This document shows, piece by piece, positions 1,406 through 20,164 of a stretch of 24,353 bases of DNA. How positions within the stretch are numbered: position 1 is the stretch's first letter; the number at the start of each line of letters is the position of its first letter. The stretch lies in the IMG/VR virus record IMGVR_UViG_3300025759_010933, positions 1 to 24,353 of that record. The stretch is one strand, 5' to 3'. The notes below the pieces were generated by a model. That model did no database searches. It was given only the letters and a program-made list of their open reading frames with translations, and had not been told where the DNA came from. A program made the position numbers and the translations under genes. The stretch comes from a virus.

Positions 1406-1416
1406 TATTATTACAC
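1406..1416 (-). promoter_or_regulatory. GTGTAATAATA promoter-like motif
   Basis: On the minus strand this reads GTGTAATAATA, a one-base-expanded version of the GTGTAATATA element, and ends 3 nt before the ATG at 1402. If it is a -10-type element, the transcript of the 110-aa and fibre genes would be essentially leaderless. Confidence 0.45.
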
Positions 1417-1439
1417 TTTTTTAACGATTTATTGAAAAA

Positions 1440-1796
1440 CTATCTACCTTCAGATAGTATTTTTAAGACTTCTGGCGATATATTGGGGGTGTCTTTTTTA
1501 TCTTCGATTGGTTTTTTGTAAGCCGATGAAAATTTTAAAAACTCTTTTAACAAAGTTCTAGTCAATAAATCTCTATTATCTACTGGTATTATACCTATAG
1601 ATGCAGCATGAGCGAATATATCTGACTTCGACATATCATCTAACTTAGCCTTATATTCTTTATCGCAAAGAGTGCCATACTTACTAAGACCATCGTCACC
1701 CCAAATTTGATCTAACGTGGTTGGTTGGACTTTCTCTTCTTTACCGTGAGCCTGAGAAATGTCAGTTAACTTTTCAGCTTTTTTTCTTCTACCCAT
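1440..1796 (-). CDS. Hypothetical protein (118 aa), basic N-terminus, after the capsid gene
   Basis: I do not recognise a named family with certainty. The N-terminus is basic (MGRRKKAEK), and the middle (about residues 52-86) has a predicted helical segment, DMSKSDIFAHAASIGIIPVDNRDLLTRTL, broken here only by description: it runs Asp-Met to Leu and resembles small SAP/LEM-like helix-extended-helix modules. The C-terminus is Lys/Glu-rich. It lies after the capsid terminator and carries its own upstream GTGTAA motif. In many phages the first gene after the major capsid gene encodes a head-completion or neck component, which is a plausible but unproven role here. Confidence 0.65.
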   Translation of the reverse strand: MGRRKKAEKLTDISQAHGKEEKVQPTTLDQIWGDDGLSKYGTLCDKEYKAKLDDMSKSDIFAHAASIGIIPVDNRDLLTRTLLKEFLKFSSAYKKPIEDKKDTPNISPEVLKILSEGR

Positions 1797-1803
1797 AATG
1801 CTT

Positions 1804-1813
1804 AAACTTACAC
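1804..1813 (-). promoter_or_regulatory. GTGTAAGTTT promoter-like motif after the capsid terminator
   Basis: The minus strand reads GTGTAAGTTT, a divergent copy of GTGTAATATA. It begins about 32 nt after the T-run of the intrinsic terminator and ends 7 nt before the ATG at 1796. The terminator-then-motif order fits re-initiation of transcription. Confidence 0.45.
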
Positions 1814-1844
1814 TATTTTTACAAAAAAGCGAATAAAAATAAAT

Positions 1845-1871: not shown

Positions 1872-1894
1872 GAATTTCGAAACTAACTAATTTC

Positions 1895-3608: not shown

Positions 3609-4262
3609 TTACTTAATTTCATAACCCTCTTCTAACGAAAAGGCTGACTTATATTTTTCAATTAAAGTTGGCTCGGAAGCTTCGCTTGTAGTAGGAATTT
3701 CGCTCTTAGCCTCAACAGCATTATCAATAGCTTCTTCAACTACCGCTTCTGCTGGGGTTTCTTGAGCAACAACTTCTTCTTCTACCTGCTCGGTTTCTTC
3801 AGCAACGGACTCTTCTTGAACTTCTTCAGCTTGATCTTCTGCCTTTACTGTTAAAAGCATACCCATTTTGCTGGAGTAGGTCTCGAAAGACTCCTCGTCT
3901 AATTCTTGAATTTCAGAAGCAATCAAAGAGCGAACATCATCACTCAACTCATACTTCTCATCAAACATAGACATGCGCTGGTTGAATTTCTCTTCAGCTT
4001 CTTTAGCTGCTACCTCGCTTTTGATTTGATCTAAAGATTCGGAAATCTTATCGAAGTCCTCTTTAAGCTTGGTGTGCTCTTCTAATAGTTGCTGATGTTC
4101 TTCTTGAGATGCCTGAAGTTTTCTTTCCACTTCTTCTTTCTCGGAAACAAATTGCTCAGAAGCTTTCTTAAACTCCTGCTCAATAAAGTCCGATACTACA
4201 GAAGCTTTGAGATCTTTCAAGTTCTCATCGGTAATATCTTTGATTGATTCTATCTTATCCAT
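3609..4262 (-). CDS. Nested in-frame scaffold protein (internal start)
   Basis: Inside the protease gene, Met296 (ATG at 4262-4260) follows AAGGA with a 7-nt spacer. It sits exactly at the junction between the protease and the coiled-coil region. Translation from here gives 217 aa containing only the scaffold. Lambda C/Nu3 and similar phages use this arrangement to make excess scaffold relative to protease. The sequence shows the Shine-Dalgarno and the domain boundary; use of the start is inferred. Confidence 0.6.
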   Translation of the reverse strand: MDKIESIKDITDENLKDLKASVVSDFIEQEFKKASEQFVSEKEEVERKLQASQEEHQQLLEEHTKLKEDFDKISESLDQIKSEVAAKEAEEKFNQRMSMFDEKYELSDDVRSLIASEIQELDEESFETYSSKMGMLLTVKAEDQAEEVQEESVAEETEQVEEEVVAQETPAEAVVEEAIDNAVEAKSEIPTTSEASEPTLIEKYKSAFSLEEGYEIK

Positions 4263-5147
4263 AATAGATTCCTTATTAGTTTTTACATTATTTTCTTGTA
4301 AATGGGAACTTTTTTCTGCATTTTTTTCTAAATTTGCAGCTATATCCACTTGTTCACAAGATTCTGCTTCAGACTCATCTGCATTGGCGGACTCGTAAGA
4401 TTGTTTTGTTACCACTCCTTTTACGTCAGCGGCTGGGTTTTCGGTTAAACCGATGCCCAATGGTAATACATTATTAATGACTTGTCTATATATTTTCTTG
4501 CCATTTTTCAAAGTACCAGAACCACCAAATGCTCTTAGGTACTTTTTATACTTGCTTACATCTTCCGAGTTAGAGAATATCTCTGCATATTCTATGTTTT
4601 TATCCTCTTCCTCTAAAGCAACTATATTATATTCGCTAAATCCTAGCTCCCAACTTGCTGATACCTTCATGTAAGACTCGCTAGTGGGATCGCTTGCTTC
4701 TTCAATTATCGCGGCTAATTTAGAGTTTACTATCTTCCAAACTACACCGCCTAAAGCAACGTTAAAGGGTCCATTGTACTCAGATAGCTCTTCTTTTGCA
4801 ATTGGCTTATCCGTGCCAAATTCAGTAAACCCTACAGTTAGTATAACACCAACTACTTTTTCTCTATTGTGCTCTATATTTATTGGTTTATTTATGAAGT
4901 ACTCACTCATAGCCAATGCTGTTTGAGTATCAACTACATCATGATTTTTATTAACTCTATTAGCTACACAGGCGTTGAAAGCTACTGGCAGTAAATCTAT
5001 GTTCTTTTCTACATCTATTTCTGGTATTATCTCGCCTATTTCAATCAAGCTAGCTAAAGCTAGATACTTATCTTTTTGTTCATTAACCAAAGGTTTTATG
5101 TTTGAACTAAAGATCGTTCTGTATTTAAAGTCTTCCATTTTAGCCAT
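3609..5147 (-). CDS. Prohead protease with C-terminal scaffold domain
   Basis: This 512-aa protein has two parts. Residues 1-250 look like a prohead maturation protease: NKPINIEHNRE (His93 candidate), KVSASWELG (Ser163 or Ser165 candidate) and GLTENPAADV near 234-243, in the order seen in serine-type phage prohead proteases. Residues about 296-512 are a scaffold: a long Glu/Lys-rich coiled coil (about 315-400), then a low-complexity acidic V/E/A stretch and a short C-terminal domain ending in YKSAFSLEEGYEIK. The protease would cleave the scaffold and capsid arms during maturation. The full-length ATG follows a GTGTAATATA motif and an AAAGGA Shine-Dalgarno. Catalytic residues are my alignment by eye. 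Confidence 0.85.
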   Translation of the reverse strand: MAKMEDFKYRTIFSSNIKPLVNEQKDKYLALASLIEIGEIIPEIDVEKNIDLLPVAFNACVANRVNKNHDVVDTQTALAMSEYFINKPINIEHNREKVVGVILTVGFTEFGTDKPIAKEELSEYNGPFNVALGGVVWKIVNSKLAAIIEEASDPTSESYMKVSASWELGFSEYNIVALEEEDKNIEYAEIFSNSEDVSKYKKYLRAFGGSGTLKNGKKIYRQVINNVLPLGIGLTENPAADVKGVVTKQSYESANADESEAESCEQVDIAANLEKNAEKSSHLQENNVKTNKESIMDKIESIKDITDENLKDLKASVVSDFIEQEFKKASEQFVSEKEEVERKLQASQEEHQQLLEEHTKLKEDFDKISESLDQIKSEVAAKEAEEKFNQRMSMFDEKYELSDDVRSLIASEIQELDEESFETYSSKMGMLLTVKAEDQAEEVQEESVAEETEQVEEEVVAQETPAEAVVEEAIDNAVEAKSEIPTTSEASEPTLIEKYKSAFSLEEGYEIK

Positions 5148-5166: not shown

Positions 5167-5176
5167 TATATTACAC
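5167..5176 (-). promoter_or_regulatory. GTGTAATATA promoter-like motif (protease gene)
   Basis: This exact minus-strand GTGTAATATA, preceded by TTTTG, ends 19 nt before the ATG at 5147, with the AAAGGA Shine-Dalgarno in between. It lies in the gap between the 147-aa gene and the protease gene. Confidence 0.6.
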
Positions 5177-5191: not shown

Positions 5192-5635
5192 TTAGTATAA
5201 AATATACGACATTTGATTTTTTGGTTCTATATACAAATCATCTATGTCGGTAATATTGAAATCTTTCAAAAACTCATCGCAGTCTTTAGACGCTTCGGTT
5301 ATATCATTTTCATCTGGAGCGAATGGTTTGGAGTAATCAAACTTTTTATCAACCATTCTTAAATACATTACAATCGAAGCCACGGACCATACTTTAAGGT
5401 CTTTTACGTGATCTTGTTCTTTAAAGGTTGCGTTGGAATTACAGAATACTTCTTTTAAAGTATTATACGATACTTTTCTATCGCTTTGTGAATTATGGTT
5501 TTTCTGTTTTGTTTTTAAGAGGTCTACCACTCTTATAGAAGCGTCTATATCGTTTTGCAAACTTGCAGCTTGCTCGAAGCCTTTTGTATTTACTTCGATC
5601 TCTATACTTTGCTGCTTTTCCTGTTCTTGGTGCAT
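5192..5635 (-). CDS. Hypothetical protein (147 aa), acidic C-terminus
   Basis: I do not recognise this protein. It is hydrophilic and mainly helical, with Gln/Glu-rich residues 1-30, a central segment SYNTLKEVFCNSN, then LKVWSVASIVMYLRMVDKKFD and an acidic tail rich in Asp (DFNITDIDDLYIE). It has no signal peptide or membrane segment. It is the first gene after an intrinsic terminator, has a GTGTAA-type motif just upstream and precedes the protease/scaffold gene, so a virion-assembly function is plausible from context only. The ATG at 5635 is preceded by AGAGCAAG, a weak purine stretch. Confidence 0.6.
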   Translation of the reverse strand: MHQEQEKQQSIEIEVNTKGFEQAASLQNDIDASIRVVDLLKTKQKNHNSQSDRKVSYNTLKEVFCNSNATFKEQDHVKDLKVWSVASIVMYLRMVDKKFDYSKPFAPDENDITEASKDCDEFLKDFNITDIDDLYIEPKNQMSYILY

Positions 5636-5644
5636 CTTGCTCTA

Positions 5645-5654
5645 TAAGTTACAC
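5645..5654 (-). promoter_or_regulatory. GTGTAACTTA promoter-like motif after a terminator
   Basis: The minus strand reads GTGTAACTTA. It ends 9 nt before the ATG at 5635 and starts about 40 nt beyond the terminator's T-run. This is the second case of an intrinsic terminator followed at once by a GTGTAA element. Confidence 0.45.
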
Positions 5655-5694: not shown

Positions 5695-5724
5695 AAAAAA
5701 AAAGGCCACTCTAAAAAGAGTGGC
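5695..5724 (-). terminator. Intrinsic terminator after the lysis-type cluster
   Basis: On the minus strand, GCCACTC (5724-5718), loop TTTTTA, GAGTGGC (5711-5705) form a 7-bp stem followed by a long T-run. It lies about 23 nt after the stop of the 71-aa lipoprotein gene. Confidence 0.93.
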
Positions 5725-6610: not shown

Positions 6611-7783
6611 TTATATGTTAGCTATTTTTTTAAGTTCCTCAAGTTTGTCTGCTGGCTCTGCCAACCCCCCAACCGCACTAAACACGGTTAAGTTAGGTTT
6701 GTCTCCACTATAGATGCCTCTATGGACAATACTATTCGGTTTTAACATTCTAGATAATTGGTCAAAAGCTTCATCTAGACTTTTTTGAGGAATTTCGTTT
6801 AACTGTTCAGTTCCACCGATTATAACTCCAGCAGCAGTGTTGCCAGAGCTTAGGTCTACACCTCCAGTTAAAATATTATTTTTTAAATTTTCTCTTACTG
6901 CTCTTGATATAGATACTGAGTCCTTCCAGTCTTTTACTGGAGAAGCTCCAAAAACAATCAAACCAGAGTCTAAAAGGTTTCCATAGTCATTCGAATCAAA
7001 AGCTGAATAAGTACTGTCTTTAGCCGATGTGTGGTTGAACAAATGAAACAATCCAGCCATGCTATGATTAGAGACCTTCCAAAAATCAGCAACACTTAAA
7101 TTAGGATAAAGTTTTCCAACTTTTTCATTATCTATCAGTATAAGAGGAGAGACGACCCCAGAAGCAACCATGTCATAAGCTTTTTTAAGCCCTTCGAATG
7201 CATTTGCATTTACTCTTTTGCCTTCTGAGTATTTTGGTAAAGCTAGTATTAAACCAACTTTTTTAGATTTAGATTTTATAGCAGTCTGCATTTCTAGAGC
7301 AGTATTAACCAGCGGCTCTAATGTTCCACTCCCAGTGCCTCCCCCTGCTCCAATACAAACGTATATTCTATCAACTTCATCCCCAAATGATCTTCTCATG
7401 AAGTCCAATACATCTTCTCTTTTGTCTTCAAACTTCTTTCTAGCTACTTCGGGATCTTTACCTGCCCCACCTTCGCCAAAGCAAAATTTGTTTTCTAGAG
7501 ATATGGTATTTAAATCTTGCTGCGCCGTATTTATTGCAGCGACTCTCCTATACCCAAGGCCGTAAAAAGTTTCGGCTATTCTAGAGCCTCCTTGGCCAGA
7601 ACCTATGAAAGCATTTTTGAAAGATACTAGACATTCATCTTTTACTTCGTTTCTAGTCTTGTCTTCTTCAATTTCTGGTGGCAAAAGTATATCTGGAAGC
7701 TCTATATCTACAGAGTCTCCATAGATAGATTGAACCACTTCTTGCTCGTTGCTATTACTCGTATTTTCTGGTTCTTCAGTCAT
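6611..7783 (-). CDS. Tubulin/FtsZ superfamily GTPase
   Basis: This 390-aa protein carries the main tubulin/FtsZ nucleotide-binding loops: T1 GSGQGGSR (61-68), a following VAAINTAQQDL strand/loop, T3 GGAGKDPEVARK (105-116) and the tubulin signature GAGGGTGSGT (145-154). A T7-type loop is likely at NDYGN (265-269); the Asp equivalent to FtsZ Asp209 is kept, but the position of Asp212 is Asn. Residues 1-50 are an acidic, poorly conserved extension, and there is a C-terminal domain (about 290-390). Phage tubulins such as PhuZ and TubZ form filaments for DNA positioning or segregation. Here the gene lies between the portal (1-nt gap) and the holin, inside the late cluster. Family assignment is strong; PhuZ, TubZ or another clade cannot be decided by eye. 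Confidence 0.88.
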   Translation of the reverse strand: MTEEPENTSNSNEQEVVQSIYGDSVDIELPDILLPPEIEEDKTRNEVKDECLVSFKNAFIGSGQGGSRIAETFYGLGYRRVAAINTAQQDLNTISLENKFCFGEGGAGKDPEVARKKFEDKREDVLDFMRRSFGDEVDRIYVCIGAGGGTGSGTLEPLVNTALEMQTAIKSKSKKVGLILALPKYSEGKRVNANAFEGLKKAYDMVASGVVSPLILIDNEKVGKLYPNLSVADFWKVSNHSMAGLFHLFNHTSAKDSTYSAFDSNDYGNLLDSGLIVFGASPVKDWKDSVSISRAVRENLKNNILTGGVDLSSGNTAAGVIIGGTEQLNEIPQKSLDEAFDQLSRMLKPNSIVHRGIYSGDKPNLTVFSAVGGLAEPADKLEELKKIANI

Positions 7784-7784: not shown

Positions 7785-9701
7785 TTAAATTTTACTCGCC
7801 AACATTAGACTTGCTAGATAGAAATCCACAGAGTATTCTTCACTAATTTGATAGATATGTTTGACTCTATCATGGTTCTTATCTTTTGGATTATCTGCGT
7901 AATCGCCAATCTTGTCAAGCCATGCTTTTGGCTCTTCATTAGCTATGATTAGATTTGCAATAGAAGTACAAACTTCTTTCTGTTCTTTTTTAAGTCTTTT
8001 TACAGAATGTCTAGCTCTCAAAAATGATTGAACTTTCTTTTCAAGTTCTTGAGCCAGCAACATGTTGTCTTTTATCTTAGAGAAGTCAAACTGCTCAGAG
8101 GCGACAGACGGATTTTCTTGAGGTTCACCGCCCGAATCAACAGGTCTGCCATTTTCTTTTGGCATCTCTTCTGGGCTTTTGTTTTCATCTGATGGGTTAG
8201 GCTTGGCCCCTCCGATGACTGGTTGGTAGTATCCCTTTTCTTTCTGGTTGACAAAATCCTGCTGAGACTCTAAAGACTGGTCTTTCGTTGGAAGCCTATT
8301 ACTTTCCAAAGCCTCTACTATCTCGTCAGCAGTGAGTACACCTAGTTCATAAAGTCTCGTATATATTCTTTCTTTAGCCACGTTATCCCCAAGACTTATC
8401 TCATCGTAATAAGGAGTAGGGTAGTTTTTTAAGTTCAGAGCCTTAGCTACTCTTTTGATCTCAGGTTTTATAAAGTAGTTTAAAAACGCTTCTCTACCAG
8501 AGTTGAGTCTAGATAAGAATAACTCTACCTTGCTAACCAAGTTAGAGAATTTTTCCCCACCAACTAAAATATTATTTAATCCTAAGTTTATGTCTCTATC
8601 GAATATTTCATACTTTCTTGGGTCCATGAGGTCTGCCACTCTTGGAACAACGAACTCCGCTTTGGTTGTGTAGTCTGAAATGAGAACTCTGCCGACAGAT
8701 TCGTTTTGGAAAAGTTCTTGCATTGCTGCTAAATTTCTTTGATTGATACCACCCTCGTCAGGAGGAGCTCCCATCGTCACAAGTAAAACTGCTTGCTGGA
8801 TACATCTTCCTATAGCCATATCCATTTGCTTGAGCTCTTGCTTAAAATTTAGATCCATTAAAACTGGATAACCCATCGGTACTGCAAAGGGTTCGTAATC
8901 CTGCTTTTTATAAAACACTGCTATAACTTTATCTGCCGACAAAGGTATCATCAAAGACTGATCTTTTTTAGAACTTTTTAAAGATTTTTTACTTTCCTCT
9001 GGAAGCGAATTTAAAAAATCGTAGTCCTCTTCTGTCGTGGGATTTATTAATCTAGACTTTTCATACGCGGATAAAGTCTTGTAATAACCTCCATACGCAC
9101 CAAAGTTCAAAGAGCCAGTTAACCTAAGATCTGCTGGGTTTAAAAATAAATATTTAGTTGGTAAATTAGTTGTATCAGCAACGGACTCCTCTAAAGATGC
9201 AAAAGTTTGAGTTATCTTTTTAACATCCTCCTGACTCATCTCTGACTCAAGCCTATATATAAATACATTCCCAGATCTATAATACTCTCTAAAAAATTTA
9301 TCTTGTATATCCCAAATTCCTATTTTTTTGAGGTAAGCATCAAAGAAGTTTCTAGACTTTTTAGAACCTCCTTTGAAATAAATGCTTCCGCTGGAGAATT
9401 CAGTCATTAGATCTATTACGTTTCTAAATTGAGAAAAATTATAATAGGCTTTTTGACACAAAATTACAGAATCTCTAATTTCTAACAGAGAGTTGTTATT
9501 GTAATTTGCAGAGTACTTCCAAGGTATTAAGCCATCGTCAATATTTTTGTAAGCATCGGTACGGTGAATAGAAGAAGCAGCATTTCTTCTAGTTCTGGTT
9601 CTTGAAGTGCTTAAATTAGCACTAGACTCATAAGCCATCAATGGCTTTACGCCGTTATCTTCGGTCTTAGGCGGGTTAGGTTTTTGAGGCTTTTTTCTCA
9701 T
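7785..9701 (-). CDS. Portal protein
   Basis: The 638-aa length and the position directly after the large terminase identify this as the portal, the dodecameric ring at the unique capsid vertex. Recognisable parts are an N-terminal basic arm, the region LCQKAYYNFSQFRNVIDLMTE with FREYYRSGNVFIYRLE (about 80-155), and the central GEKFSNLVSKVELFLSRL helix followed by FLNYFIKPEIKRVAKAL, matching the stem/crown helices of portals. A Pro/Glu-rich linker (about 515-545) precedes a helical C-terminus with LEKKVQSFLRARHSVKRLKK. It overlaps no gene but is 1 nt from the tubulin-like ATG. Its leader contains GTGTAATATA, and no Shine-Dalgarno is seen. Confidence 0.85.
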   Translation of the reverse strand: MRKKPQKPNPPKTEDNGVKPLMAYESSANLSTSRTRTRRNAASSIHRTDAYKNIDDGLIPWKYSANYNNNSLLEIRDSVILCQKAYYNFSQFRNVIDLMTEFSSGSIYFKGGSKKSRNFFDAYLKKIGIWDIQDKFFREYYRSGNVFIYRLESEMSQEDVKKITQTFASLEESVADTTNLPTKYLFLNPADLRLTGSLNFGAYGGYYKTLSAYEKSRLINPTTEEDYDFLNSLPEESKKSLKSSKKDQSLMIPLSADKVIAVFYKKQDYEPFAVPMGYPVLMDLNFKQELKQMDMAIGRCIQQAVLLVTMGAPPDEGGINQRNLAAMQELFQNESVGRVLISDYTTKAEFVVPRVADLMDPRKYEIFDRDINLGLNNILVGGEKFSNLVSKVELFLSRLNSGREAFLNYFIKPEIKRVAKALNLKNYPTPYYDEISLGDNVAKERIYTRLYELGVLTADEIVEALESNRLPTKDQSLESQQDFVNQKEKGYYQPVIGGAKPNPSDENKSPEEMPKENGRPVDSGGEPQENPSVASEQFDFSKIKDNMLLAQELEKKVQSFLRARHSVKRLKKEQKEVCTSIANLIIANEEPKAWLDKIGDYADNPKDKNHDRVKHIYQISEEYSVDFYLASLMLASKI

Positions 9702-9710: not shown

Positions 9711-9720
9711 TATATTACAC
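9711..9720 (-). promoter_or_regulatory. GTGTAATATA promoter-like motif (portal gene)
   Basis: An exact minus-strand copy ends 9 nt before the ATG at 9701, in the 23-nt gap after the terminase stop. The following bases CTTTATAAA are almost the same as those after the copy before PhoH (TTTTGTAAA), so the conserved block extends to the start codon. Confidence 0.6.
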
Positions 9721-9724: not shown

Positions 9725-11557
9725 TTATATTAATCTTGGTTGAAAAGTGTGAGAAATTTCTTCTTTCTGATTTTTCGTGTCATTGTAGCATTTTAAAGCC
9801 CAATTAGCTAGCATTAATGCTGTATAGTTATCTCGTCTAGCTCTGTTTACACTGGTCGATCTTTTTAGGTGTTGTGGCAAATCAAATGTCTGAGTTCCTT
9901 TTGCAGTGCTTTTAACTTCTATTAACGCACACTGTTTTTTAGTTTGGTATACTAGTATATCTTGATTTTCTATCAGTTCTCCTAAATTTTTAATATCTTT
10001 GCTAAAATTAGACATATCTATGTTTAAAAACGCTTGTCTATTAAAAGATTCTCCATTAGCAGTTGCCCTTGATGCGAACCATATTTTTTTATAATCTATA
10101 CAAGCCTGTAAGTGCTCATTCGCCTTTCTCAAAAAATCGCTAGTAAAATTCTGCTTAAAACAGATTTTATGGTTTTCTTTATTCAGATCAAGCTTTAATT
10201 TTCTTATTTGCTTTCCGTATTCAATTCCATCTTTAGTGGAGTCAAAATCGATAAATTTTAAATTAATATTGCTTTTCAGGAAATTGGTTGACTCATTGCA
10301 ACTATCTAGAAATTGATATCCTGCATTATCAATGCACACCATAGCAACGTCAAAGTTTGTATAAACATAATAAAAATAATTTATATGGTCTTTTAAATCC
10401 CCTCCAGCCACAGCATAATTATGAACTAATGTTCCTTCGCCAGTGTCCTGATCAACCTCCAGTACAGCTATTGCAAAATAGTCAGAAGAAGGACTATTAC
10501 TAAAACTTGGATCGATCCCTATGATATACTTACATCCCTTCTTCCCTTTGATTAAAGTAGTTGGTTCTTCACCATCTGGTATAGTACATTGGTGCATTTT
10601 TTTAGCACTAAAATAAGAATCAGAACCGTCTGTAAATTGAGCGCAGTACTCTCTTAAAAAAGAAGAGTGTGAAGACCCACCTGTTTTTGCTTCCTCAATT
10701 ACCGTTTTATCCACCATCTCTTCGGGCAACGCTTCATAACTCATTTGAGATATAAAGTAAGAAGCTTCAGAGGGTTCTTCAGACTCTATTTTGCTGTACC
10801 ATTCTTTGTAGGTTTTGAAAAGGTTTTCGAAAGTGTAGCTAGCAGAGGACAAGGCTATCATCTTGGAGGTATTTTCAAATACAAATCTTTCCTCCTCCTT
10901 CATTTTACCTTCTTTTATCAACTGGTCTTCTATCTCCCTTATCTCTAATCTCTCTTTCATGTTTTGAGGTGCGACCAAAAAAGGCATTAAAACCGTATTC
11001 ACCAACTCTTCTGGCAACAGTAAAAACTCGTCAAGGACTAGTATGTTCGCTCTAAAACCACGAATCTTTTCCCCGTTCAAAGGAATGGCTGTTATAGTAC
11101 CACCATTTATCTCCCACTCGTATTGATCATTTCTCTTAGAAGGCTTTGCTGAAAAGGCTTGAGCTAAAAGATTAGCACCTTTGGATTTAACTATTTTTTC
11201 TAAATTATTAAATATAAATCTAGCAGTACGAAAGGTAGGTCCAGCTATTAATATTTTAGTACCTGGTTCAAATATGCATTGTAAAAAGCAAAAGACCGAA
11301 GCTATGAAAGTTTTTCCGCAGCCACGGCCCCAGACACACATTGAAAAATTTCTATTAAGCATTCCTTTCAACGTCGCCTCTTGATATGGAGCTAGTTTTA
11401 TACCCGATATCAACTCGGTAGTAAAAGACAGGTTGCCTCTAAGAAACTTAGCTAATGAAATTTTAGCCTCCTTGTCTTCTAGCTCTCCTTTTAGACTCAT
11501 TAATTCTTCGTTTATATCGAAGAGCTCTTTCTTGTATTTGTCTGGGCAAAAAATCAT
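9725..11557 (-). CDS. terL: Terminase large subunit
   Basis: The 610-aa protein has both halves of a phage packaging motor. The N-terminal ATPase has an adenine-binding entry LAPYQEATL (55-63), Walker A WGRGCGKT (76-83) and Walker B NILVLDE (171-177). The C-terminal RNase H-like nuclease has YIIGIDPSFSNSPSSDY with Asp349 and VCIDNAGY with Asp410. It cuts concatemers and pumps DNA into the prohead through the portal, whose gene follows after 23 nt. The start overlaps the stop of the ERCC4-type nuclease gene as ATGA. Length is within the usual range for large terminases. Confidence 0.95.
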   Translation of the reverse strand: MIFCPDKYKKELFDINEELMSLKGELEDKEAKISLAKFLRGNLSFTTELISGIKLAPYQEATLKGMLNRNFSMCVWGRGCGKTFIASVFCFLQCIFEPGTKILIAGPTFRTARFIFNNLEKIVKSKGANLLAQAFSAKPSKRNDQYEWEINGGTITAIPLNGEKIRGFRANILVLDEFLLLPEELVNTVLMPFLVAPQNMKERLEIREIEDQLIKEGKMKEEERFVFENTSKMIALSSASYTFENLFKTYKEWYSKIESEEPSEASYFISQMSYEALPEEMVDKTVIEEAKTGGSSHSSFLREYCAQFTDGSDSYFSAKKMHQCTIPDGEEPTTLIKGKKGCKYIIGIDPSFSNSPSSDYFAIAVLEVDQDTGEGTLVHNYAVAGGDLKDHINYFYYVYTNFDVAMVCIDNAGYQFLDSCNESTNFLKSNINLKFIDFDSTKDGIEYGKQIRKLKLDLNKENHKICFKQNFTSDFLRKANEHLQACIDYKKIWFASRATANGESFNRQAFLNIDMSNFSKDIKNLGELIENQDILVYQTKKQCALIEVKSTAKGTQTFDLPQHLKRSTSVNRARRDNYTALMLANWALKCYNDTKNQKEEISHTFQPRLI

Positions 11558-12501: not shown

Positions 12502-13590
12502 TTACCCGTTTAAAATTTCTTCCTCACTAATCCCAAGTATTCTACATTTTATTTCATCCATACTAGAAAGTTTATCAACCTCTTCTTTCGTGGCTTCTTT
12601 CCTAAGCTGCGCCAACTTTAACATTTTTTTCCTACTCTCTTCGTTCTTCCACATTTCAACCAAATTGAGTATGCTCGCAGAATCTGATTGTCTTTTTTTA
12701 AGTCTATCGCTACGCTTTTCCTTTAAATCATTAAGTAAAGTTTGCTGTCTTTTTACCGATTGATTGTATTCCGTTTCCACTTTGCCTATTATCTCAACCA
12801 AGGACATAGAAGCTCTCCCGTCAGCTTCTTGCATCGACTCTCTCAAAAGAATGTTTAAATCTTCTTTTCTTCTTTGTATGTCAGATGCAATTACAACTTC
12901 AGAAGCTAGTATTATGTATTGATCAACCTCCTCCTCTGTTAAATCTGGTTTATCATGAGTATATCTTATAAAAGTTGACTCAAACAAATCCCTCTCAATC
13001 GAACTTTGTATAGAATTTATCTGATGGATGAACCTATACGAGTTAACATAGCTCAGTAGAGCTTCTACTCCGTGCTTTTGGGACGGGGTTATTTTTTCTT
13101 TATCAATTGAATCGCTGATGTATTTTTGTATCCTTGAAACCATTTTATCAAAAGACTTGGGAGGTTTAAAGGCGGACGGCGATTGTGGTAATTCTTGACT
13201 AGATTCAAAAGGTTCGTCATTAGTTTGTATTGAGTCTATGTACTCTTTTACTGTTATAGCCTCTATACTCAGATTTGTTAAAGTATTATCCTTGAATAAT
13301 ACCTTAGCAACCTCCACATAAGTCATTAAAGTGAAATTATTATTTATAAATTCTTTTTGATCTGAGGTTAGATCCGCTCTTTCTTTTTTGCTGTAGACAG
13401 AAGTGGTCTTTGGCTTTAAATCCCTAGAGGCTAAAAATTGTTTAATAGCACGACCCTCCTTACTTCTGCCATCTATACTCTCTTGATCTGGAAATAACAA
13501 CTTGGTAAGATCTTGAAGGGATGGGGGCTCACCCTCGGAATCGTTCCAAGCCTTTATTATTGCATCACCTTGTTCTTTATTTAATTTCAT
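12502..13590 (-). CDS. Hypothetical helical protein, candidate small-terminase-like
   Basis: This 362-aa protein is almost all helical. Residues 1-110 contain two similar segments that could be helix-turn-helix repeats (MKLNKEQGDAIIKAW with LTKLLFPDQ, and LTSDQKEFINNNF with YVEVAKVLFKDN). A Pro/Ser linker (about 128-143) leads into a long helical region, about 250-335, with heptad-like spacing. It lies between the sigma-like gene (ATGA overlap) and the nuclease/terminase pair. DNA-binding N-terminus, coiled-coil oligomerisation region and proximity to terL suggest a small-terminase role, but I recognise no family signature. Confidence 0.6.
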   Translation of the reverse strand: MKLNKEQGDAIIKAWNDSEGEPPSLQDLTKLLFPDQESIDGRSKEGRAIKQFLASRDLKPKTTSVYSKKERADLTSDQKEFINNNFTLMTYVEVAKVLFKDNTLTNLSIEAITVKEYIDSIQTNDEPFESSQELPQSPSAFKPPKSFDKMVSRIQKYISDSIDKEKITPSQKHGVEALLSYVNSYRFIHQINSIQSSIERDLFESTFIRYTHDKPDLTEEEVDQYIILASEVVIASDIQRRKEDLNILLRESMQEADGRASMSLVEIIGKVETEYNQSVKRQQTLLNDLKEKRSDRLKKRQSDSASILNLVEMWKNEESRKKMLKLAQLRKEATKEEVDKLSSMDEIKCRILGISEEEILNG

Positions 13591-14288
13591 AGATCTAACT
13601 TGTCGCTATCTAAAAGATTTTTCGCTTTGTCTAAAATATTTTTTTTAATATTTTTTATTTGCTTGTAACCTGGTTTCCTGTCTTTTTCGGAGGTTTTATA
13701 TCCCATTAACTTGGCTGCTTCTTCCTCGCTTTTATTTTCAATATAAAGCAGTATATAGACTTTCCTTTCTAGAGGTTTCAAATGCTTTACGATTTCTTTA
13801 TGAAATTTATTAAGCACCCCTTCTATGTCGTTGTATTTTTCTAAAAACTTGGAGTTTATTTCGTGAGTATGATATTCTAAAGGCAGTGTTAGCTTTACAT
13901 TATAAGCTGACTTTTTACTTTCACTCCATCTTTTGTACACAGCGCATTCTACTGATTCGTTTGTAAATATCATGCATAAACCATTACCTTCGTAAGCAGC
14001 GCACTTTAAACATGGTTTTGCAAAATTAGAGTAATTGTTTCTTATTAAGTTCTTTATTTGGTTTGAAATTATCCTATTAAGCCAAGGCTCTAGTGGTTTT
14101 TTAGGATCGTATTGATGCCATTTCTTATATATATGAATCCTCAGAATTTGAGACACGTCATCATAGTCAAGCCATGATAAAGACTTTAGCTTCCACTTAG
14201 CCCTTCTTTTTCTTATCTCATTGTCTATTCTATCTATAGACTCTTCAAAAGATGGCTTTTTAGGAGGTCTCCCTCTTTTTTTAGCCAT
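13587..14288 (-). CDS. RNA polymerase sigma-factor-like protein with inserted Cys cluster
   Basis: This 233-aa protein starts with an AT-hook-like KKRGRPPKK. Residues about 36-85 resemble sigma region 2: DYDDVSQILRIHIYKKW, then PLEPWLNRIISNQIKNLIR. Residues about 168-225 resemble region 4: LKPLERKVYILLYIENKSEE and an HTH-like AAKLMGYKT segment. Between them is a cluster Cys93, Cys96, Cys105, Cys115 that could bind zinc or an iron-sulfur cluster. Such phage sigma factors direct late transcription, as T4 gp55 does in another family. Its start overlaps the zinc-ribbon gene by 8 nt, and its stop overlaps the next ATG. A link to the GTGTAATATA motif is inferred. Confidence 0.72.
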   Translation of the reverse strand: MAKKRGRPPKKPSFEESIDRIDNEIRKRRAKWKLKSLSWLDYDDVSQILRIHIYKKWHQYDPKKPLEPWLNRIISNQIKNLIRNNYSNFAKPCLKCAAYEGNGLCMIFTNESVECAVYKRWSESKKSAYNVKLTLPLEYHTHEINSKFLEKYNDIEGVLNKFHKEIVKHLKPLERKVYILLYIENKSEEEAAKLMGYKTSEKDRKPGYKQIKNIKKNILDKAKNLLDSDKLDL

Positions 14289-14691
14289 TAGGTTTTATGG
14301 CCCCAGCTTCTCTTCTAAAAGCTTCGGCAACTTCTTCCGCTGAAGCATTTTTCCCCCCGTATGTTTGAGATGGTCTAGGGACGGCACTGTTTATGTCCAA
14401 CGGAGGAGATGACTGTCCTTTTGACTCCTCTATCAAACTAGATAGTGTGGTGCTTTTATTTTGGAAGACTTGAGAATCGAAAGCTAAAGACGAGATGTCG
14501 GGAATCTTAAAAGACTCTTCCTCGCTAACGCCTTGCGTATCTAAGCTTGGCTTAGTCTTCAAATCTTTATTAGGGCTAGTCTTCGTCGTTGCTACTGATA
14601 AAGAACTACCACATTTTTGACAAAACCTTGGCTTCTCCGAAGTGTAACTATTAGGAGAACCGCATTTGTGACAATATATTTTAGACGGCAT
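14281..14691 (-). CDS. Zinc-ribbon protein (136 aa), unknown function
   Basis: The N-terminus has two CxxC knuckles, YCHKCGSPNSY and FCQKCGSSL (Cys7, Cys10, Cys23, Cys26), a small zinc ribbon. The remaining about 105 residues are Ser/Thr/Pro/Lys-rich and look disordered, ending in a short helix EEVAEAFRREAGAIKP. It is the first gene of the minus-strand late region and overlaps the sigma-like gene by 8 nt. A partnership with that protein or with RNA polymerase is possible but rests on position alone. A GTGTAATATA motif lies about 54 nt upstream. Confidence 0.65.
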   Translation of the reverse strand: MPSKIYCHKCGSPNSYTSEKPRFCQKCGSSLSVATTKTSPNKDLKTKPSLDTQGVSEEESFKIPDISSLAFDSQVFQNKSTTLSSLIEESKGQSSPPLDINSAVPRPSQTYGGKNASAEEVAEAFRREAGAIKPNG

Positions 14692-14730: not shown

Positions 14731-14907
14731 ATGAAATCAAAAGATATATTACACCAAATTCAAAAGAATTTCAAAGAAATTTTAAATTTAAGTTATCCCT
14801 TGTGTAAACACGATAATAAAGAGATTTCAAAATTATCTTCAAAAATTAATAAAGACTGCTATAACAAGGTCAAAGAAATATCAAGATTTCTTGACTCTAA
14901 AAAATAA
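14731..14907 (+). CDS. Possible small gene (58 aa) at the head of the plus-strand operon
   Basis: An ATG at 14731 opens a 58-codon frame ending TAA at 14907. The product is helical and charged (MKSKDILHQIQKNFKEIL, later KINKDCYNKVKEISRF). Its amphipathic pattern looks more protein-like than random AT-rich sequence. It lies 18 nt before the GT9-like start in the same direction. No good Shine-Dalgarno is present (TTTAAGTAAA). It also overlaps the opposing GTGTAATATA motif of the zinc-ribbon gene. This could be a real small gene or the divergent intergenic region. Confidence 0.4.
   Translation: MKSKDILHQIQKNFKEILNLSYPLCKHDNKEISKLSSKINKDCYNKVKEISRFLDSKK
14745..14754 (-). promoter_or_regulatory. 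GTGTAATATA promoter-like motif (head of late region)
   Basis: An exact minus-strand copy preceded by TTTG. It lies about 54 nt before the ATG at 14691, the longest leader among the copies, and would drive the zinc-ribbon, sigma-like and following packaging genes. It sits in the gap between divergently oriented gene blocks, where a promoter is expected. Confidence 0.6.
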
Positions 14908-14925: not shown

Positions 14926-15813
14926 GTGGAGTACGAAAATATAACCGTTAGAAGAAACGGGGCTCTTGGCGACGTAATCGCTAGTCTTAATGCTCTACCG
15001 AAACTTAAAGAAAAATATAATAAAGTAACATATGTTACATCTCAAGAAATCATAGATAATATTGGGTTTTTGATATCAAATTACTGCGACGAATTAAAAA
15101 CGGAAAGCGATCTCAGTGAAGAGGAGTCTCATAGCTTGATTGATTTTTTAGGATATACCCCACCTTTTCCAGAAAAAGTAACGTCTAGCTTGATAGAAAA
15201 CTTTTGTAAAGAAGTAAACGTTGATTACAACCTAAATCTTCCAGCTATAGATTCTCTGCCAAATCCTTTTGTCGATAAAGCCGAAGAGGATAAAATAATC
15301 ACAATTCAAAAAAACGCTGGGTGGTCTGTATACAAAGAATATAACAATTTTAATAAAGTAATAGAGATATTAAAAGCTTACGATAAAAATTTTAAATTTT
15401 ATCAAATAGGCGGTCCAGACGAAGACTTATTAAATAATTTAGAGGGTTCTTTTATAGGAAAGTCTTTTAAAGAAAACCTATCGGCTCAGTCGCACTCGGA
15501 CTTGCATATAGGGGTAGACTCTGTGTTTAATAATACTTCAAATATATCTTGGAGTCATCGCGATAAAACGAGGTCATTGATCCTATTTTTAAGCTCAAGT
15601 GAAAGACTAACAGCTTACCCACACAACTTAAATGTATTTAAAGAGCTAGAATGTAGACCATGTTTTAGAGATAATCCAGACAGATCCTATGGAAGTCTTG
15701 GTCCTAAAACGCCCTGCGATAACCCGCCAAATCAGTCTTATGAAAACCCCATTCACGAGTGTGGGAATATCGACCCAATGTATATATCTAATATAGTGAG
15801 ACAAGTTATATGA
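14926..15813 (+). CDS. Glycosyltransferase, GT9/heptosyltransferase-like
   Basis: This 295-aa protein has RRNGALGDVIASL at residues 9-21, the N-terminal signature of ADP-heptose:LPS heptosyltransferase-like enzymes, and a C-terminal donor-site motif HIGVDSV (194-200). Its C-terminal tail has four Cys (243, 246, 264, 279) spaced as C-x2-C...C...C, seen in some GT9 relatives. The start is a GTG directly following an in-frame TGA; no ATG is available before the conserved motif, so GTG is preferred. It opens an operon in which genes overlap by 4 nt or lie 1 nt apart. Donor and acceptor sugars cannot be predicted. Confidence 0.8.
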   Translation: MEYENITVRRNGALGDVIASLNALPKLKEKYNKVTYVTSQEIIDNIGFLISNYCDELKTESDLSEEESHSLIDFLGYTPPFPEKVTSSLIENFCKEVNVDYNLNLPAIDSLPNPFVDKAEEDKIITIQKNAGWSVYKEYNNFNKVIEILKAYDKNFKFYQIGGPDEDLLNNLEGSFIGKSFKENLSAQSHSDLHIGVDSVFNNTSNISWSHRDKTRSLILFLSSSERLTAYPHNLNVFKELECRPCFRDNPDRSYGSLGPKTPCDNPPNQSYENPIHECGNIDPMYISNIVRQVI

Positions 15814-16661
15814 GTAAAATATTTATAGCGATACAGTCTTGCAAAGAAAAAGAGTCCAGAAAAGACGCCTGTAGAAAGACTTGGCTTAAAGACTTAGACT
15901 ACGATAAGTACGAATACATGTTTTATCAAAGTGGGTACGAAGGGCCAGAGCCTTACTTAATAGAGGGCGATACTATAACTTTCAATACCCCAAAGCCAGA
16001 AAAAGTGGAAATGTGGGCTAGCTATAGAGATTTAGATAATATAGAAGGCGAGCCAATAAGAACCAGTAAAAATTCTTTTCCAGTTGGAATAAAAACTTGG
16101 GATGGTAGATTTTACTTTGGTAATGATATTTTTAGAAAAAAAGTATCAGAACATAAGCTTGGCATACAGTGGTTAAACCTAACCGCGCAATTAAGTGCTG
16201 TTTGTAACTGGTCTTTACAAAATAAAGATCCAAGCTTTTTTGTAAAGGTAGACGACGACACTTTTGTTGTAGCTGAAAATTTTAATAAAATTGATCCGAC
16301 TCCATACGATTACTATGGCTATTTCAATCATACCGACTGGATCTGGACTTTTGGTTCGTGCTATTTCATTAACAATGAATGCCTCCGTATCTTCTGTAAT
16401 AATTCAAGTCCAAGTCAACTAGCCAAGGTAAATATAAGGTGCTGCCACATGGATGACTGTGCGATGGGTATGGTTTTAGACGCTCATAAAAAAGACTTGA
16501 TCAAAAAACACGAGCCTGAAATGAAACCGTGGAGACCCGAATACCATGAACCTACTTTGCCTTTAGAATATAAAAAGAATTTAATCGTATCGCATGGTTA
16601 CGACAACTTAGACCATATGCTAGACATGGATCATATGATGAAAGAGATATTTAAATCCTAA
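15810..16661 (+). CDS. GT31-like (galactosyltransferase/Fringe-type) glycosyltransferase
   Basis: This 283-aa protein begins with a strand and SRKDACRKTWL (16-26), equivalent to the R-x-x-x-R-x-T-W motif of beta-1,3-galactosyltransferases. It has the metal-binding triad in FFVKVDDDTFVV (DDD 148-150), then FGSCYFIN and CHMDDCAMGMVL (Asp215/216), which matches the E/D-D-V/C-x-x-G motif near the active site. It lacks a membrane anchor, unlike the eukaryotic Golgi members. ATGA overlap with the GT9-like gene indicates coupling. The domain is best known from eukaryotes but occurs in giant viruses and some phages and bacteria. Confidence 0.78.
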   Translation: MSKIFIAIQSCKEKESRKDACRKTWLKDLDYDKYEYMFYQSGYEGPEPYLIEGDTITFNTPKPEKVEMWASYRDLDNIEGEPIRTSKNSFPVGIKTWDGRFYFGNDIFRKKVSEHKLGIQWLNLTAQLSAVCNWSLQNKDPSFFVKVDDDTFVVAENFNKIDPTPYDYYGYFNHTDWIWTFGSCYFINNECLRIFCNNSSPSQLAKVNIRCCHMDDCAMGMVLDAHKKDLIKKHEPEMKPWRPEYHEPTLPLEYKKNLIVSHGYDNLDHMLDMDHMMKEIFKS

Positions 16662-16662
16662 C

Positions 16663-17775
16663 ATGAAAACCATCGCTTTTACAGCTATCGTCAGAAACGA
16701 ACAGGACAATATATTAAATTGTTTAGAATCAGTGAAAGATTTGTGTGATAAATTTATCATACTCGACACTGGCTCTAATGATGAGACGATCAATGTAGTT
16801 AAAGACTTTTTCAAAAAGAATAATTTAGATGGTGATATCATCTCTGATCCTTGGGTAAGTTTTTCAACAAATAGAACCAATGCTCTAAACAAGGCTAAAG
16901 ACCTTGGTTGCGATTACGTACTAATGCTAGATGCTGACGAGACTATGAACTACAAGCCTGATTTCAACCTTTCCAAGTTCAAAGAAAACTTAAAGGCTCA
17001 GGTATACGATGTTGAAACCAACTTAGATATTATTTATTATCGACCACTGTTAACGAGAGCAGATCTTAATTGCTTTTACAAATCGGTGATTCACGAATTC
17101 TTAGAGTGTCCTAATAACTGGGATAGTAGGGATAAAACCGAAGGGGTCTTTGTATCATCGTCTTTAAATGGATATAGATCCAAACAGTCTGAAAACAAAT
17201 TTATAAATGACATCAAAGTATTAAAAAAAGAACTTGAAACAGAAACCGATGAATTTCTAATATCTCGTTATACTTTCTATCTAGCAGAATCTCTTAAAAA
17301 TTCAGGTAATAGTCTCGAAGCAGTTAAGTACTACAGAAAGAGAACTCAACAAGGCTTTTGGGATCAAGAGATTTTCGAAAGTTACTACGCTATGGCTAAA
17401 TGCTTTGAAGATATTGATGAAAAACCTGAGATAGTAATGAGTACTTATCTACAGGCTTTCGAAGCCTGTCCCTCAAGAGCGGAGTCTTTGCATGATTTGG
17501 CTTTCTACTGTAGAAAAAAAGAATGGTTTAATATAGCTCTTATGTATGCCCTTCAAGGAACTAGAATTCCGCTTCCAGACAATGGCTTATTTGTTAAAAA
17601 ATGGATTTACGACTATGGACTAAAAGACGAGGCTTCTGTCTCCGCTTATTGGACTGGCGATTACGAAACTAGTTATCAGTTATCGGTGCAATTGGTTAAA
17701 GAAAATCTTTACCCCGAAAGTCAGGAGGACCGAATTAAAGCAAACTTACAGTTCGCAAAAGAAAAGATAGGATGA
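16663..17775 (+). CDS. GT2-family glycosyltransferase with TPR-like repeats
   Basis: The 370-aa protein opens with IAFTAIVRNEQDNILNCLESV, continues with ILDTGSNDET and has the metal/nucleotide-binding DAD at 90-92 (LMLDADETM), the hallmark of GT-A family 2 enzymes. The C-terminal half (about 205-330) has helical pairs such as YTFYLAESLKNSGNSLEAVK and YYAMAKCFEDIDEKPE, resembling TPR repeats seen in SunS-like and other protein-acting GT2 enzymes. TPRs may present a peptide or protein acceptor. It starts 1 nt after the preceding stop. The acceptor could be a virion protein, but that is inference. Confidence 0.85.
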   Translation: MKTIAFTAIVRNEQDNILNCLESVKDLCDKFIILDTGSNDETINVVKDFFKKNNLDGDIISDPWVSFSTNRTNALNKAKDLGCDYVLMLDADETMNYKPDFNLSKFKENLKAQVYDVETNLDIIYYRPLLTRADLNCFYKSVIHEFLECPNNWDSRDKTEGVFVSSSLNGYRSKQSENKFINDIKVLKKELETETDEFLISRYTFYLAESLKNSGNSLEAVKYYRKRTQQGFWDQEIFESYYAMAKCFEDIDEKPEIVMSTYLQAFEACPSRAESLHDLAFYCRKKEWFNIALMYALQGTRIPLPDNGLFVKKWIYDYGLKDEASVSAYWTGDYETSYQLSVQLVKENLYPESQEDRIKANLQFAKEKIG

Positions 17776-18749
17776 ATATTCTCATAACATCAATAGGCTC
17801 CTTAACATCTAAAGAAATTATAAATGACTTAAAAGAAAAGGGTCATTTTGTTTTAGGTATAGATGCTAAATTCGTAAAAAATTCTTTAGTTGATAAGTTT
17901 TTCTCGTGTCCTCTTGCAAAGAACGAAAACGAGTACATTTCCTTTGTTCTTAACGCCTGTAAGATAGAGGGAGTCGAATGTATAATCCCATTGTCAACTT
18001 CCGAGATTAAAGCGATATCTAATAACTTAGAACTGTTTAGTAGAAATAATATAAAAGTAAAAACAAGCTCTTTGGAATATATAGACCTATGTCAAGACAA
18101 GTCTAGATTCTATGATTTTTGTAAATGTAACCATATAGAAACTCCAGATTACCTTCTTTGTAGAAGCTTTAAAGATATTAAAAAATTTTACGATAAAATT
18201 CACAAACGCAATAAGCAAGCTTGCATTAAGCCAAGATTTGGAGAAGGATCTAGGGGGTTTAGGATTATTAGAAACCAATCCTTGGACGATCTACTAAGCA
18301 CCAAGTCATCTATTGAGATTAGCTTGGATGAGCTTCTTAAAACCTGTGGAGAACAAAATTTCAAAATACTAGGCATGGAATACCTAAGCGGTAAAGAATA
18401 TTCCGTGGATATTTTAGCCAAAGATGGAAAAGTCCTACAAATAGCTATTAGAACAAGAGATACTGTCATGAATGGGTTCTCCCATAAAGCTACTTTTGTA
18501 GAAAATAATCTTATATCCTCAGTGTGTGTACGGTTGGTCGAAAAATTAAATCTGAATGGTCTAGTAGGCTTTCAGTTTAAAGAAAACGAATTGGGTACGC
18601 CTATTATACTAGAATGCAATCCAAGAGTTCAAGGCGGTATTTTCTTCGCTAGAAAAGCGGGTATTGATTTCATTGACTCGTATCTAGAATTATGTAATGA
18701 TAAGGCCGTTTCCAATAAGCCATATGAACTAATTTCTGTAGAAAGATGA
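17772..18749 (+). CDS. ATP-grasp ligase (carbamoyl-phosphate-synthase-like fold)
   Basis: The 325-aa protein has an N-terminal pre-ATP-grasp Rossmann domain (MNILITSIGS, then GIDAKF). The ATP-grasp core contains CIKPRFGEGSRG (151-162) with the lysine and glycine-rich loop, GMEYLSGKEYSVDI (201-214), and the metal-binding ECNPRVQGG (281-289). ATP-grasp enzymes activate a carboxylate as acyl phosphate and join it to an amine or thiol. Overlaps of ATGA with both neighbours put it between a glycosyltransferase and a deacetylase. A plausible reaction is amide formation on an amino sugar exposed by the PIG-L enzyme; substrate is unknown. Confidence 0.87.
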   Translation: MNILITSIGSLTSKEIINDLKEKGHFVLGIDAKFVKNSLVDKFFSCPLAKNENEYISFVLNACKIEGVECIIPLSTSEIKAISNNLELFSRNNIKVKTSSLEYIDLCQDKSRFYDFCKCNHIETPDYLLCRSFKDIKKFYDKIHKRNKQACIKPRFGEGSRGFRIIRNQSLDDLLSTKSSIEISLDELLKTCGEQNFKILGMEYLSGKEYSVDILAKDGKVLQIAIRTRDTVMNGFSHKATFVENNLISSVCVRLVEKLNLNGLVGFQFKENELGTPIILECNPRVQGGIFFARKAGIDFIDSYLELCNDKAVSNKPYELISVER

Positions 18750-19375
18750 AAAAGGTTTTATTCATAGGAGCTCATCCAGACGATATTGAGATTGGTTGTG
18801 GTGGGACAATTCACAAGCATAGAAAAGAATGGGATATAACTACTATTACTTTATGCGATAAAACTTTAACAGATCATTGTTTAAAAAATTATCATTATAA
18901 ATCTCTATCAAAACTTGGGGTTTCTAAAGATAAGGTGATTTTAAAGTCATTTGATCCAAGCTCATTAGACCATTGTAGGCAGCTTGTTTGGGAATCTTTC
19001 AACAAAGCCAATAACCAAATAAATCCAGAACTAGTTTTTACCCACTCTAGAGATGATCATCAGGATCATGTCACAGTCTATAACGAGACTATACGTAATT
19101 TTTATGAGTCCTCTATAGTAACCTACCATATAAACAGAAGCCAAAGAACTTTTGATCCAAATTATTATGAAATTTTATCAAAAAATAATGCTAAAGCAAA
19201 AATGCTGGCATTAAAAGAATATGCTCCTTATCAATATTCTGGGCAAAAGAAAGCCTCTGTTAAGTTTTGCATGTATGAAAAGACTGTAGAGTCTCAACTT
19301 AGGTCCAATGGGGTGTACCTTGGCAAAGAATACGTAGAGGCATTCAAAATAGTAAAAATGATTAACTTAGATTAA
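18746..19375 (+). CDS. PIG-L family N-deacetylase
   Basis: This 209-aa protein has the family motif GAHPDDIEIGCGG (8-20; His10, Asp12, Asp13) and the zinc-binding HSRDDHQDHVTV (His108 as third ligand, in the HxxDH-type segment). LmbE/PIG-L enzymes are zinc-dependent and remove acetyl groups from N-acetylglucosaminyl substrates. Typical length and all key residues are present, so it should be active. It ends the operon and its last bases TTAA are shared with the stop codon of the converging PhoH-like gene. Confidence 0.9.
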   Translation: MKKVLFIGAHPDDIEIGCGGTIHKHRKEWDITTITLCDKTLTDHCLKNYHYKSLSKLGVSKDKVILKSFDPSSLDHCRQLVWESFNKANNQINPELVFTHSRDDHQDHVTVYNETIRNFYESSIVTYHINRSQRTFDPNYYEILSKNNAKAKMLALKEYAPYQYSGQKKASVKFCMYEKTVESQLRSNGVYLGKEYVEAFKIVKMINLD

Positions 19376-20145
19376 GACTTGATGCTCTTTAACTTTTTAA
19401 CTAAAAATTTAACTAGCTTAGATCTCATGATATCCTCTTCCGTGAAAGCAAAGGTATAGACGCCTTCCTGCATACTTTCTTGATCAGACTTAAACAGGTC
19501 ATACATTTTACAAAATCCAGTTTTAGTACCACTTATATCTGTTTGCATCGGATCTGCTAAAATAAAACATTTCGACCCTTCGCCTAATCTAGTCAAAACA
19601 GTAGTAATTTCTTTAACCGTACAGTTTTGAGCCTCGTCCATTATAACGCATTTATTTTTCCAGTTAACACCTCTAGTAAAGTTTACTGGAAACATTGACA
19701 CTCTACCTTCTTTTTCTAACCTTTCAGTGGTGGCTTCTGGCAATAGTTCGTCCATTTTCTCCAAAAGAGGTATTTTGTAAAAAGACAACTTTTCTTCAGC
19801 CGAACCAGGTAGGTAACCAAGTCTTTGATCGGAAGATTCCACCGAAGATCTGAGATACATTACGTCGGAAATACTTTTTCTATTAAGCATTTGAAGACCG
19901 CAATATACCGATAGTAAAGTTTTACTGGTTCCAGCAGGGCCACTTACGAATACTATGTTAGTATTATGGTCTAAGGCAAGTTTAAAAAATTCTTTTTGTT
20001 TATCAGTCCACTGAAGCTGATTTATTTTAAGTTGCCTTTTTATAGGGTTTAAATTATCAGAATCTGGATAAAGGTCTTCATTTATAAGTTTAATGGCCTC
20101 TTCTTTGATCTTGGCTCTTGATTGAGCTTTTTTATTCTTTCGCAT
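19372..20145 (-). CDS. phoH: PhoH-like ATPase
   Basis: I start this gene at ATG 20145 (257 aa), because an upstream in-frame ATG would translate the GTGTAATATA motif into an unlikely N-terminus (MWCNIFCK). Walker A VSGPAGTSKT is at about 67-76, Walker B CVIMDEAQN at 166-174, and the LRSSVESSDQRLGYLPG segment is the typical PhoH 'R-x-x-v-e-x-g-x-x-x-G-x-L-P-G' motif in modified form. PhoH-like P-loop proteins are common in marine phages, with suggested RNA-related helicase/ATPase activity. It is monocistronic, faces the plus-strand operon, and has no terminator between them. Confidence 0.92.
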   Translation of the reverse strand: MRKNKKAQSRAKIKEEAIKLINEDLYPDSDNLNPIKRQLKINQLQWTDKQKEFFKLALDHNTNIVFVSGPAGTSKTLLSVYCGLQMLNRKSISDVMYLRSSVESSDQRLGYLPGSAEEKLSFYKIPLLEKMDELLPEATTERLEKEGRVSMFPVNFTRGVNWKNKCVIMDEAQNCTVKEITTVLTRLGEGSKCFILADPMQTDISGTKTGFCKMYDLFKSDQESMQEGVYTFAFTEEDIMRSKLVKFLVKKLKSIKS

Positions 20146-20154
20146 TTTACAAAA

Positions 20155-20164
20155 TATATTACAC
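20155..20164 (-). promoter_or_regulatory. GTGTAATATA promoter-like motif (PhoH gene)
   Basis: An exact minus-strand copy ends 9 nt before ATG 20145, at the same distance as the copy before the portal gene. Here the motif lies within an upstream in-frame extension of the PhoH frame, which argues for the later start. Confidence 0.6.

Follow-up and report, generated by a model that had tools for sequence, protein, structure and literature searches.

GTGTA[A/T] as a probable single-element late promoter in a group of apparently uncultured phages

In the present work, we examine a short repeated element in a 24,353-base stretch of viral DNA, IMG/VR record IMGVR_UViG_3300025759_010933. This stretch, called the window below, is the whole of the record and evidently only part of a larger phage. 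The element, GTGTA[A/T], is quite probably a directional late promoter consisting of that single element, which would be read by the phage's own extracytoplasmic function (ECF)-like sigma factor, encoded at 13587-14288, on the host core RNA polymerase. A first-pass annotation of the window had proposed a strand-specific late or middle promoter class recognized by a phage-encoded or phage-modified RNA polymerase, and a late class read by a phage-modified polymerase is what all the evidence taken together supports best. Hardly anything is known of how uncultured phages control their late genes, and a promoter code with its probable sigma factor that is legible straight from metagenomes would make late genes callable in hundreds of contigs.

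The element and its genes in the window

As the annotation had reported, the minus strand carries all four copies of the exact word GTGTAATATA, and each of them precedes a gene of that strand. The first copy (5167-5176) precedes the gene at 3609-5147, which is prohead-protease-like by its position. The second (9711-9720) precedes the portal-like gene at 7785-9701, so called from its place after the terminase and from a weak Pfam Phage_portal match below the cut-off. This copy comes directly after the stop codon of the gene for the terminase large subunit (9725-11557, minus strand), which has no element before itself. The third copy (14745-14754) is located before a zinc-ribbon open reading frame (ORF; 14281-14691, minus strand) that heads the sigma-nuclease-terminase operon, and the fourth (20155-20164) before the phoH-like gene at 19372-20145. 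The word ends 19, 9 and 53 nt before the start codons of the first three genes, and 9 nt before that of phoH provided that the latter starts at the ATG at 20145, which is likely, and not at the TTG at 20169.

The GTGTAA variants noted earlier before three further minus-strand genes were also found, on the same strand, at 1411-1416 before the gene at 1070-1402 (in the form GTGTAATAATATTT-ATG), at 1808-1813 before the gene at 1440-1796, and at 5649-5654 before the gene at 5192-5635. The earlier remark that two variants follow intrinsic terminators is correct and applies to the last two, whose terminators are situated just upstream at 1848-1871 and 5705-5724, both on the minus strand.

Fewer than one copy of the exact word was said to be expected by chance, and dinucleotide shuffles indeed give 0.03 copies on the minus strand, with a maximum of 1 in 300 shuffles. 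It should be pointed out that the word had been chosen by eye after reading the sequence, and the shuffles were therefore also examined for whichever 10-mer is the commonest. GTGTAATATA is the top 10-mer of the window among those with at least two G/C, but some 10-mer with this G/C content reaches a count of at least four in 116 of the 300 shuffles (ca 39%). Because the word is post hoc and shuffles often hold a four-copy 10-mer, the copy number in the window is in itself suggestive and no proof; the proof lies in position and conservation.

Conservation and placement in related phages

The search for terminase relatives yielded 80 viral loci. Of the 78 among these whose terminase-portal junction was compared, 76 have TGTAA right behind the terminase stop codon, while the flanks have diverged; in the other two, a different gene follows the terminase. 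A broader upstream set was drawn from some 160 related contigs. After removal of duplicates by protein identity, it consists of 814 genes, of which 464 have a gap of 12 nt or more; these sets are not phylogenetically independent. Among the hexamers upstream of the 464 non-redundant genes, GTGTAA shows the greatest strand asymmetry (147 sense against 34 antisense copies). Its density in the relatives is 5.28 per kb upstream and 0.075 per kb inside genes, a difference of about 70-fold, and thus far from what the annotation had named as evidence against a promoter, namely that the motif is as frequent within genes as between them. Enrichment is seen in upstream regions only: in whole-contig counts on long clade B contigs, the loose word GTGTAWW is not above its reversed-word control. 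A specific avoidance of GTGTAA inside genes was also considered and rejected; the hexamer is depleted 2.4-fold relative to codon shuffles, but nearly the same depletion is found for other permutations, such as TGTGAA.

The consensus was obtained in two ways. An expectation-maximization (EM) motif search from random seeds returned a GTGTAA motif in 43% of the regions, followed by a weak T and with A/T-rich flanks. When single-base variants at the right spacing are counted, G1, T2, T4 and A5 are nearly fixed, the third base is G and sometimes A, and the sixth is A or T. On account of these counts, the essential core is GTGTA[A/T]; the exact 10-mer put forward at first is an over-long version of it.

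The element is found upstream of all 57 distinct portal genes and of 45 of the 52 distinct phoH genes. In several families of structural and of small genes, many members have it too. The gene at 3609-5147 has a relative in contig G001 that likewise carries GTGTAA, 25 nt upstream, and the equivalents of the gene at 1070-1402 in G001, G002, G003 and G005 have it 8-13 nt before the start. The zinc-ribbon ORF has the element in only 12 of 75 relatives. No copy was found upstream of any of 86 sigma genes, 89 genes following sigma, 94 nuclease genes or 91 terminase genes, all of which are operon-internal. Its presence also depends on the gap: the element is found in 2% of cases where genes abut (gaps below 5 nt) and in 60% at gaps of 20-40 nt, where it is commonest. 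Inverted copies occur upstream in 36 of 104 divergent arrangements and in 4 of 179 co-directional ones, and divergent genes therefore tend to carry an oriented copy each.

In a 112.8-kb relative, the copies are concentrated in the late, structural half, and the module with DnaB and DNA polymerase has TTGAC-like/TATAAT-like promoters instead. The replication genes of G001 (DnaB, DNA polymerase module) have TTGAC..TATAAT-like sites upstream and no GTGTAA there. The control phages MaeS, Stills and phiEco32 show no enrichment of GTGTAA at the spacing of the element. As judged from these sequences, GTGTA[A/T] is a conserved and oriented element that precedes structural operons and not operon-internal genes; the replication genes examined lack it and carry sigma-70-type promoters.

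We now turn to the spacing between element and gene start. Counted from the last base of GTGTAA to the start codon, it breaks off sharply below 8 nt, a floor that very few copies cross, and shows peaks at 8-9 and 11-13 nt and a tail beyond 60 nt. A second clade, with a sigma factor ca 47% identical to that of the window, has the same floor (39 copies at 8 nt, 24 at 9 nt and three below). A -10 box whose transcripts begin at the ATG, or slightly ahead of it, would be expected to give such a floor. Shine-Dalgarno sequences are found in 0-2% of the genes 6-15 nt from an element, in 39% of those at a distance of at least 16 nt, and in 31% of operon-internal genes. With 8-13 nt between most elements and the ATG, the late mRNAs would have leaders of only some 0 to 6 nt, and near-leaderless late mRNAs are a strong prediction from the sequences, not a demonstration. 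Phage transcripts have been said to be often leaderless (PMC5312081).

A separate observation concerns the replication genes in L160-L161 and G001-G005, where most of the sigma-70-type promoters end no further than 5-9 nt from the ATG. Leaderless mRNAs may thus occur among the early genes as well, and this may bear on the host.

The candidate sigma factor and the weighing of explanations

The proposed recognizer, a protein of 233 residues (13587-14288, minus strand), is encoded upstream of the nuclease and the terminase in the same operon. Its region 2 matches Pfam Sigma70_r2 (PF04542) with 32.9 bits at a cut-off of 24, while region 4 stays just under the cut-off (PF08281, 24.6 against 25.7). 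The structural matches of the predicted model are mostly sigma factors and best in region 4, where residues 155-230 superimpose on the region 4 of known ECF structures (e.g. 3vfz, Z 9.8, root-mean-square deviation 1.6 over 62 residues); with a mean predicted local distance difference test score (pLDDT) of 78 and a predicted template modelling score (pTM) of 0.41, the placement of the domains in this model is unreliable. There is no match to region 3. Between regions 2 and 4, a linker of ca 65 residues holds four cysteines, C93, C96, C105 and C115 (C-x2-C-x8-C-x9-C), invariant in all 60 members of an alignment whose relatives are 42-61% identical to the window protein and in which region 2 is strongly conserved. 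This pattern suggests that the insertion in this phage sigma factor binds zinc. Published ECF structures show the -10 element being read as G-T-X (PMC6411747), a form that the GTG of the present element would fit.

The zinc-ribbon ORF lies upstream of the sigma gene and overlaps it. It is conserved in the window and the four long contigs aligned with it, with four invariant cysteines, and is also found in diverged contigs from metagenome-assembled genomes (MAGs). It is a possible partner or regulator of the sigma factor.

As to the polymerase, a multisubunit enzyme (RNA_pol_Rpb2_6) was not found in 13 contigs of up to 194 kb, which may be incomplete, with the control matching in 14 of 14 cases; the search for a single-subunit enzyme was made without a working positive control. 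The annotation had left open a phage-encoded or a phage-modified polymerase. The latter is retained, in the likely form of the ECF-like sigma factor on the host core, and the former appears less likely.

The following course of events can then be envisaged. In the early phase, the replication genes would be transcribed by the host sigma-70 polymerase, after which the phage would make its ECF-like sigma factor and take over the host core RNA polymerase. Region 2 would read G-T-G at the -10 position, much as in the ECF G-T-X element, and melt the A/T-rich DNA behind it, and transcription would start some 7-9 nt downstream of the element. Elements at least 16 nt from the start codon would feed ordinary leaders, and the window copy before the sigma operon would give positive feedback there.

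Several points weigh against this assignment. We infer both the transcript starts and the binding of the sigma factor from the sequences, and what connects the sigma factor with the element is co-occurrence among relatives collected via sigma or terminase, which include no natural sigma-less one. The score against NCBI TIGR02937 (sigma70-ECF) is 42.3, slightly short of the cut-off of 42.9. Gene starts were called by a simple ORF rule, and the lack of Shine-Dalgarno sequences in the short-spaced genes is partly forced, as the element fills that space. Finally, although the fold of region 4 is kept in the sigma factor, a convincing -35 element was not found upstream. The strongest of the weak motifs, TTTACAC, which an EM search gave 42 to 8 nt upstream in the window clade, was discarded as the inverted element, occurring mainly in divergent pairs; otherwise, only A/T-rich blocks ca 10 bp apart are seen there.

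The first alternative is a late promoter whose reader is not the phage sigma but some sigma factor of the host, or else host sigma-70 in a form that a phage activator has modified. The co-occurrence just mentioned is all that ties the promoter to the phage sigma, and these phages apparently use host sigma-70 elsewhere in their genomes. However, TGTAAT has a G where sigma-70 needs an A, no -35 partner of the TTGACA-N17-TATAAT type was found at the elements, and the sigma-70-type sites of the same phages are well formed. In addition, the phage sigma is present in exactly one copy in each of 13 long contigs, with a near-invariant region 2 that matches the invariant core. We therefore consider reading by a host factor unlikely.

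A role of GTGTAA in translation initiation, as a substitute for the Shine-Dalgarno sequence, would account for the many copies 8-13 nt before start codons that lack one. But GTGTAA is not complementary to the anti-Shine-Dalgarno sequence, and operon-internal genes almost lack it and more often have a Shine-Dalgarno sequence. Copies are also located 20-60 nt upstream, many with a Shine-Dalgarno sequence in between, each gene of a divergent pair can carry its own copy, and two of the window copies follow terminators. This explanation is thus very improbable. Slightly less probable still is an mRNA processing or operator site within late transcripts begun elsewhere: the element does lie at gene junctions, and the terminase-portal junction could be inside one operon, but copies also follow terminators and, in either orientation, precede divergent genes, positions at which an upstream transcript of the same strand is not expected. 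A chance repeat of an A/T-rich word in a single window, which the post hoc choice and the shuffle counts given above might suggest, has a negligible probability, being already refuted by the conservation of the same junctions across many diverged contigs.

A more far-reaching picture has in our view roughly even chances. In it, a widespread phage group without cultured relatives would run its whole late programme on near-leaderless mRNAs, by means of an unusual ECF-like sigma factor with a zinc-finger-like insertion and of promoters that consist essentially of a single five-base word abutting the start codon, that is, a fused unit of ca 20 bp for promoter and translation start. With the promoter code, leaderless late translation becomes directly testable. 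Moreover, the compact sigma/promoter pair comes with a natural diverged series, in which identity to the window sigma falls to ca 42-44% and the same core is kept; this series would be useful for studying how ECF-type sigma factors read the third -10 base.

Known systems and the carriers of the element

In the literature library searched, no paper was found that names GTGTAA together with a phage late promoter. The functionally closest known case is gp36 of phage phiEco32, a sigma factor that uses the host core RNA polymerase at single-element middle/late promoters, tAATGTAtA, with the start 6-8 bp downstream (PMC8948821, PMC4331800). Both systems have a short single-element promoter before structural genes and, here presumably, start at a similar distance downstream, leave the early genes to host sigma-70 and place a phage sigma on the host core. 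On the other hand, the two consensus sequences have only TGTA in common, gp36 is reported to be without region 4 homology whereas the window sigma has a region 4 fold and the Cys4 insertion, and the phiEco32 promoters precede leaders with Shine-Dalgarno sequences whereas those predicted here are mostly near-leaderless. No homology between the window sigma and gp36 was detected; an hhalign comparison of the query labelled A2 with gp36, for which the template was a single sequence, gave no alignment. We thus describe the two as similar in their working and do not file the present system as a member of that family.

Phage 7-11 also encodes a late sigma, SaPh711_gp47, with promoters of the form GTAAtg-(16)-aCTA (PMC8948821). 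Use of the host core RNA polymerase would be common to both cases, but that promoter is bipartite and no clear second element is seen here. With ECF sigma factors such as E. coli sigma-E and M. tuberculosis sigma-H (PMC6411747), the window sigma shares the region 2 and region 4 fold, and its element presumably the G-T-X type -10 with a short invariant core. Bacterial ECF promoters need a strict -35 of the GGAAC type and a spacer, neither of which is seen here, and the third base G and the four-cysteine insertion between the domains are further differences.

T4 late promoters, TATAAATA, work with gp55, gp33 and gp45 and depend on the sliding clamp. They too have a single short -10-type element for late genes (for a review, see PMC2988020). 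Its sequence differs, and the earlier statement that GTGTAATATA does not match this box is correct, the core being GTGTA[A/T]. A link to the early element of phiKZ, TATATTAC, which is the reverse complement of part of GTGTAATATA, was rejected in view of the directionality of the present element and of the failure to find a multisubunit polymerase in the 13 contigs.

The carriers seem to form a large and apparently uncultured group. Within the phage collection searched, tblastn did not find the sigma factor in any cultivated phage, and the best terminase matches listed are less than 29% identical. One of the nearest cultivated terminases is that of Bacillus phage Stills, which has a gene annotated as an ECF sigma factor a few genes before it (L332, 7636-8346); a profile comparison of this protein with the window sigma gave no homology signal.

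With regard to the host, the terminase has no match in GTDB contigs. The sigma factor matches three phage-like contigs in MAGs labelled Flavobacteriales, Halobacteriovorax and uncultured; these labels disagree and may reflect binning errors. A possible host clue is a pair of pseudopilin-like ORFs with a signature of the GFTLIELLVVIAIIAILAALLLP type in a phage contig (L168, 509-2436, corresponding to G002, 40509-42436). Patterns of this type are common in Planctomycetota/Verrucomicrobiota.

Some further genes of the window are worth recording. Directly after the portal gene, an unusual place for a phage tubulin, lies a gene for an FtsZ/tubulin-like GTPase (6611-7783; Pfam Tubulin 5.5e-10, TIGR00065 6.4e-15). 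Blocks of glycosyltransferase-like, sugar-modification-like and methyltransferase-like genes, recognized from their translations only, are found among the late genes at 14926-19375 on the plus strand and at 20339-23395 on the minus strand. At 1-1068, a collagen-like protein with Gly-x-Thr repeats runs off the end of the window.

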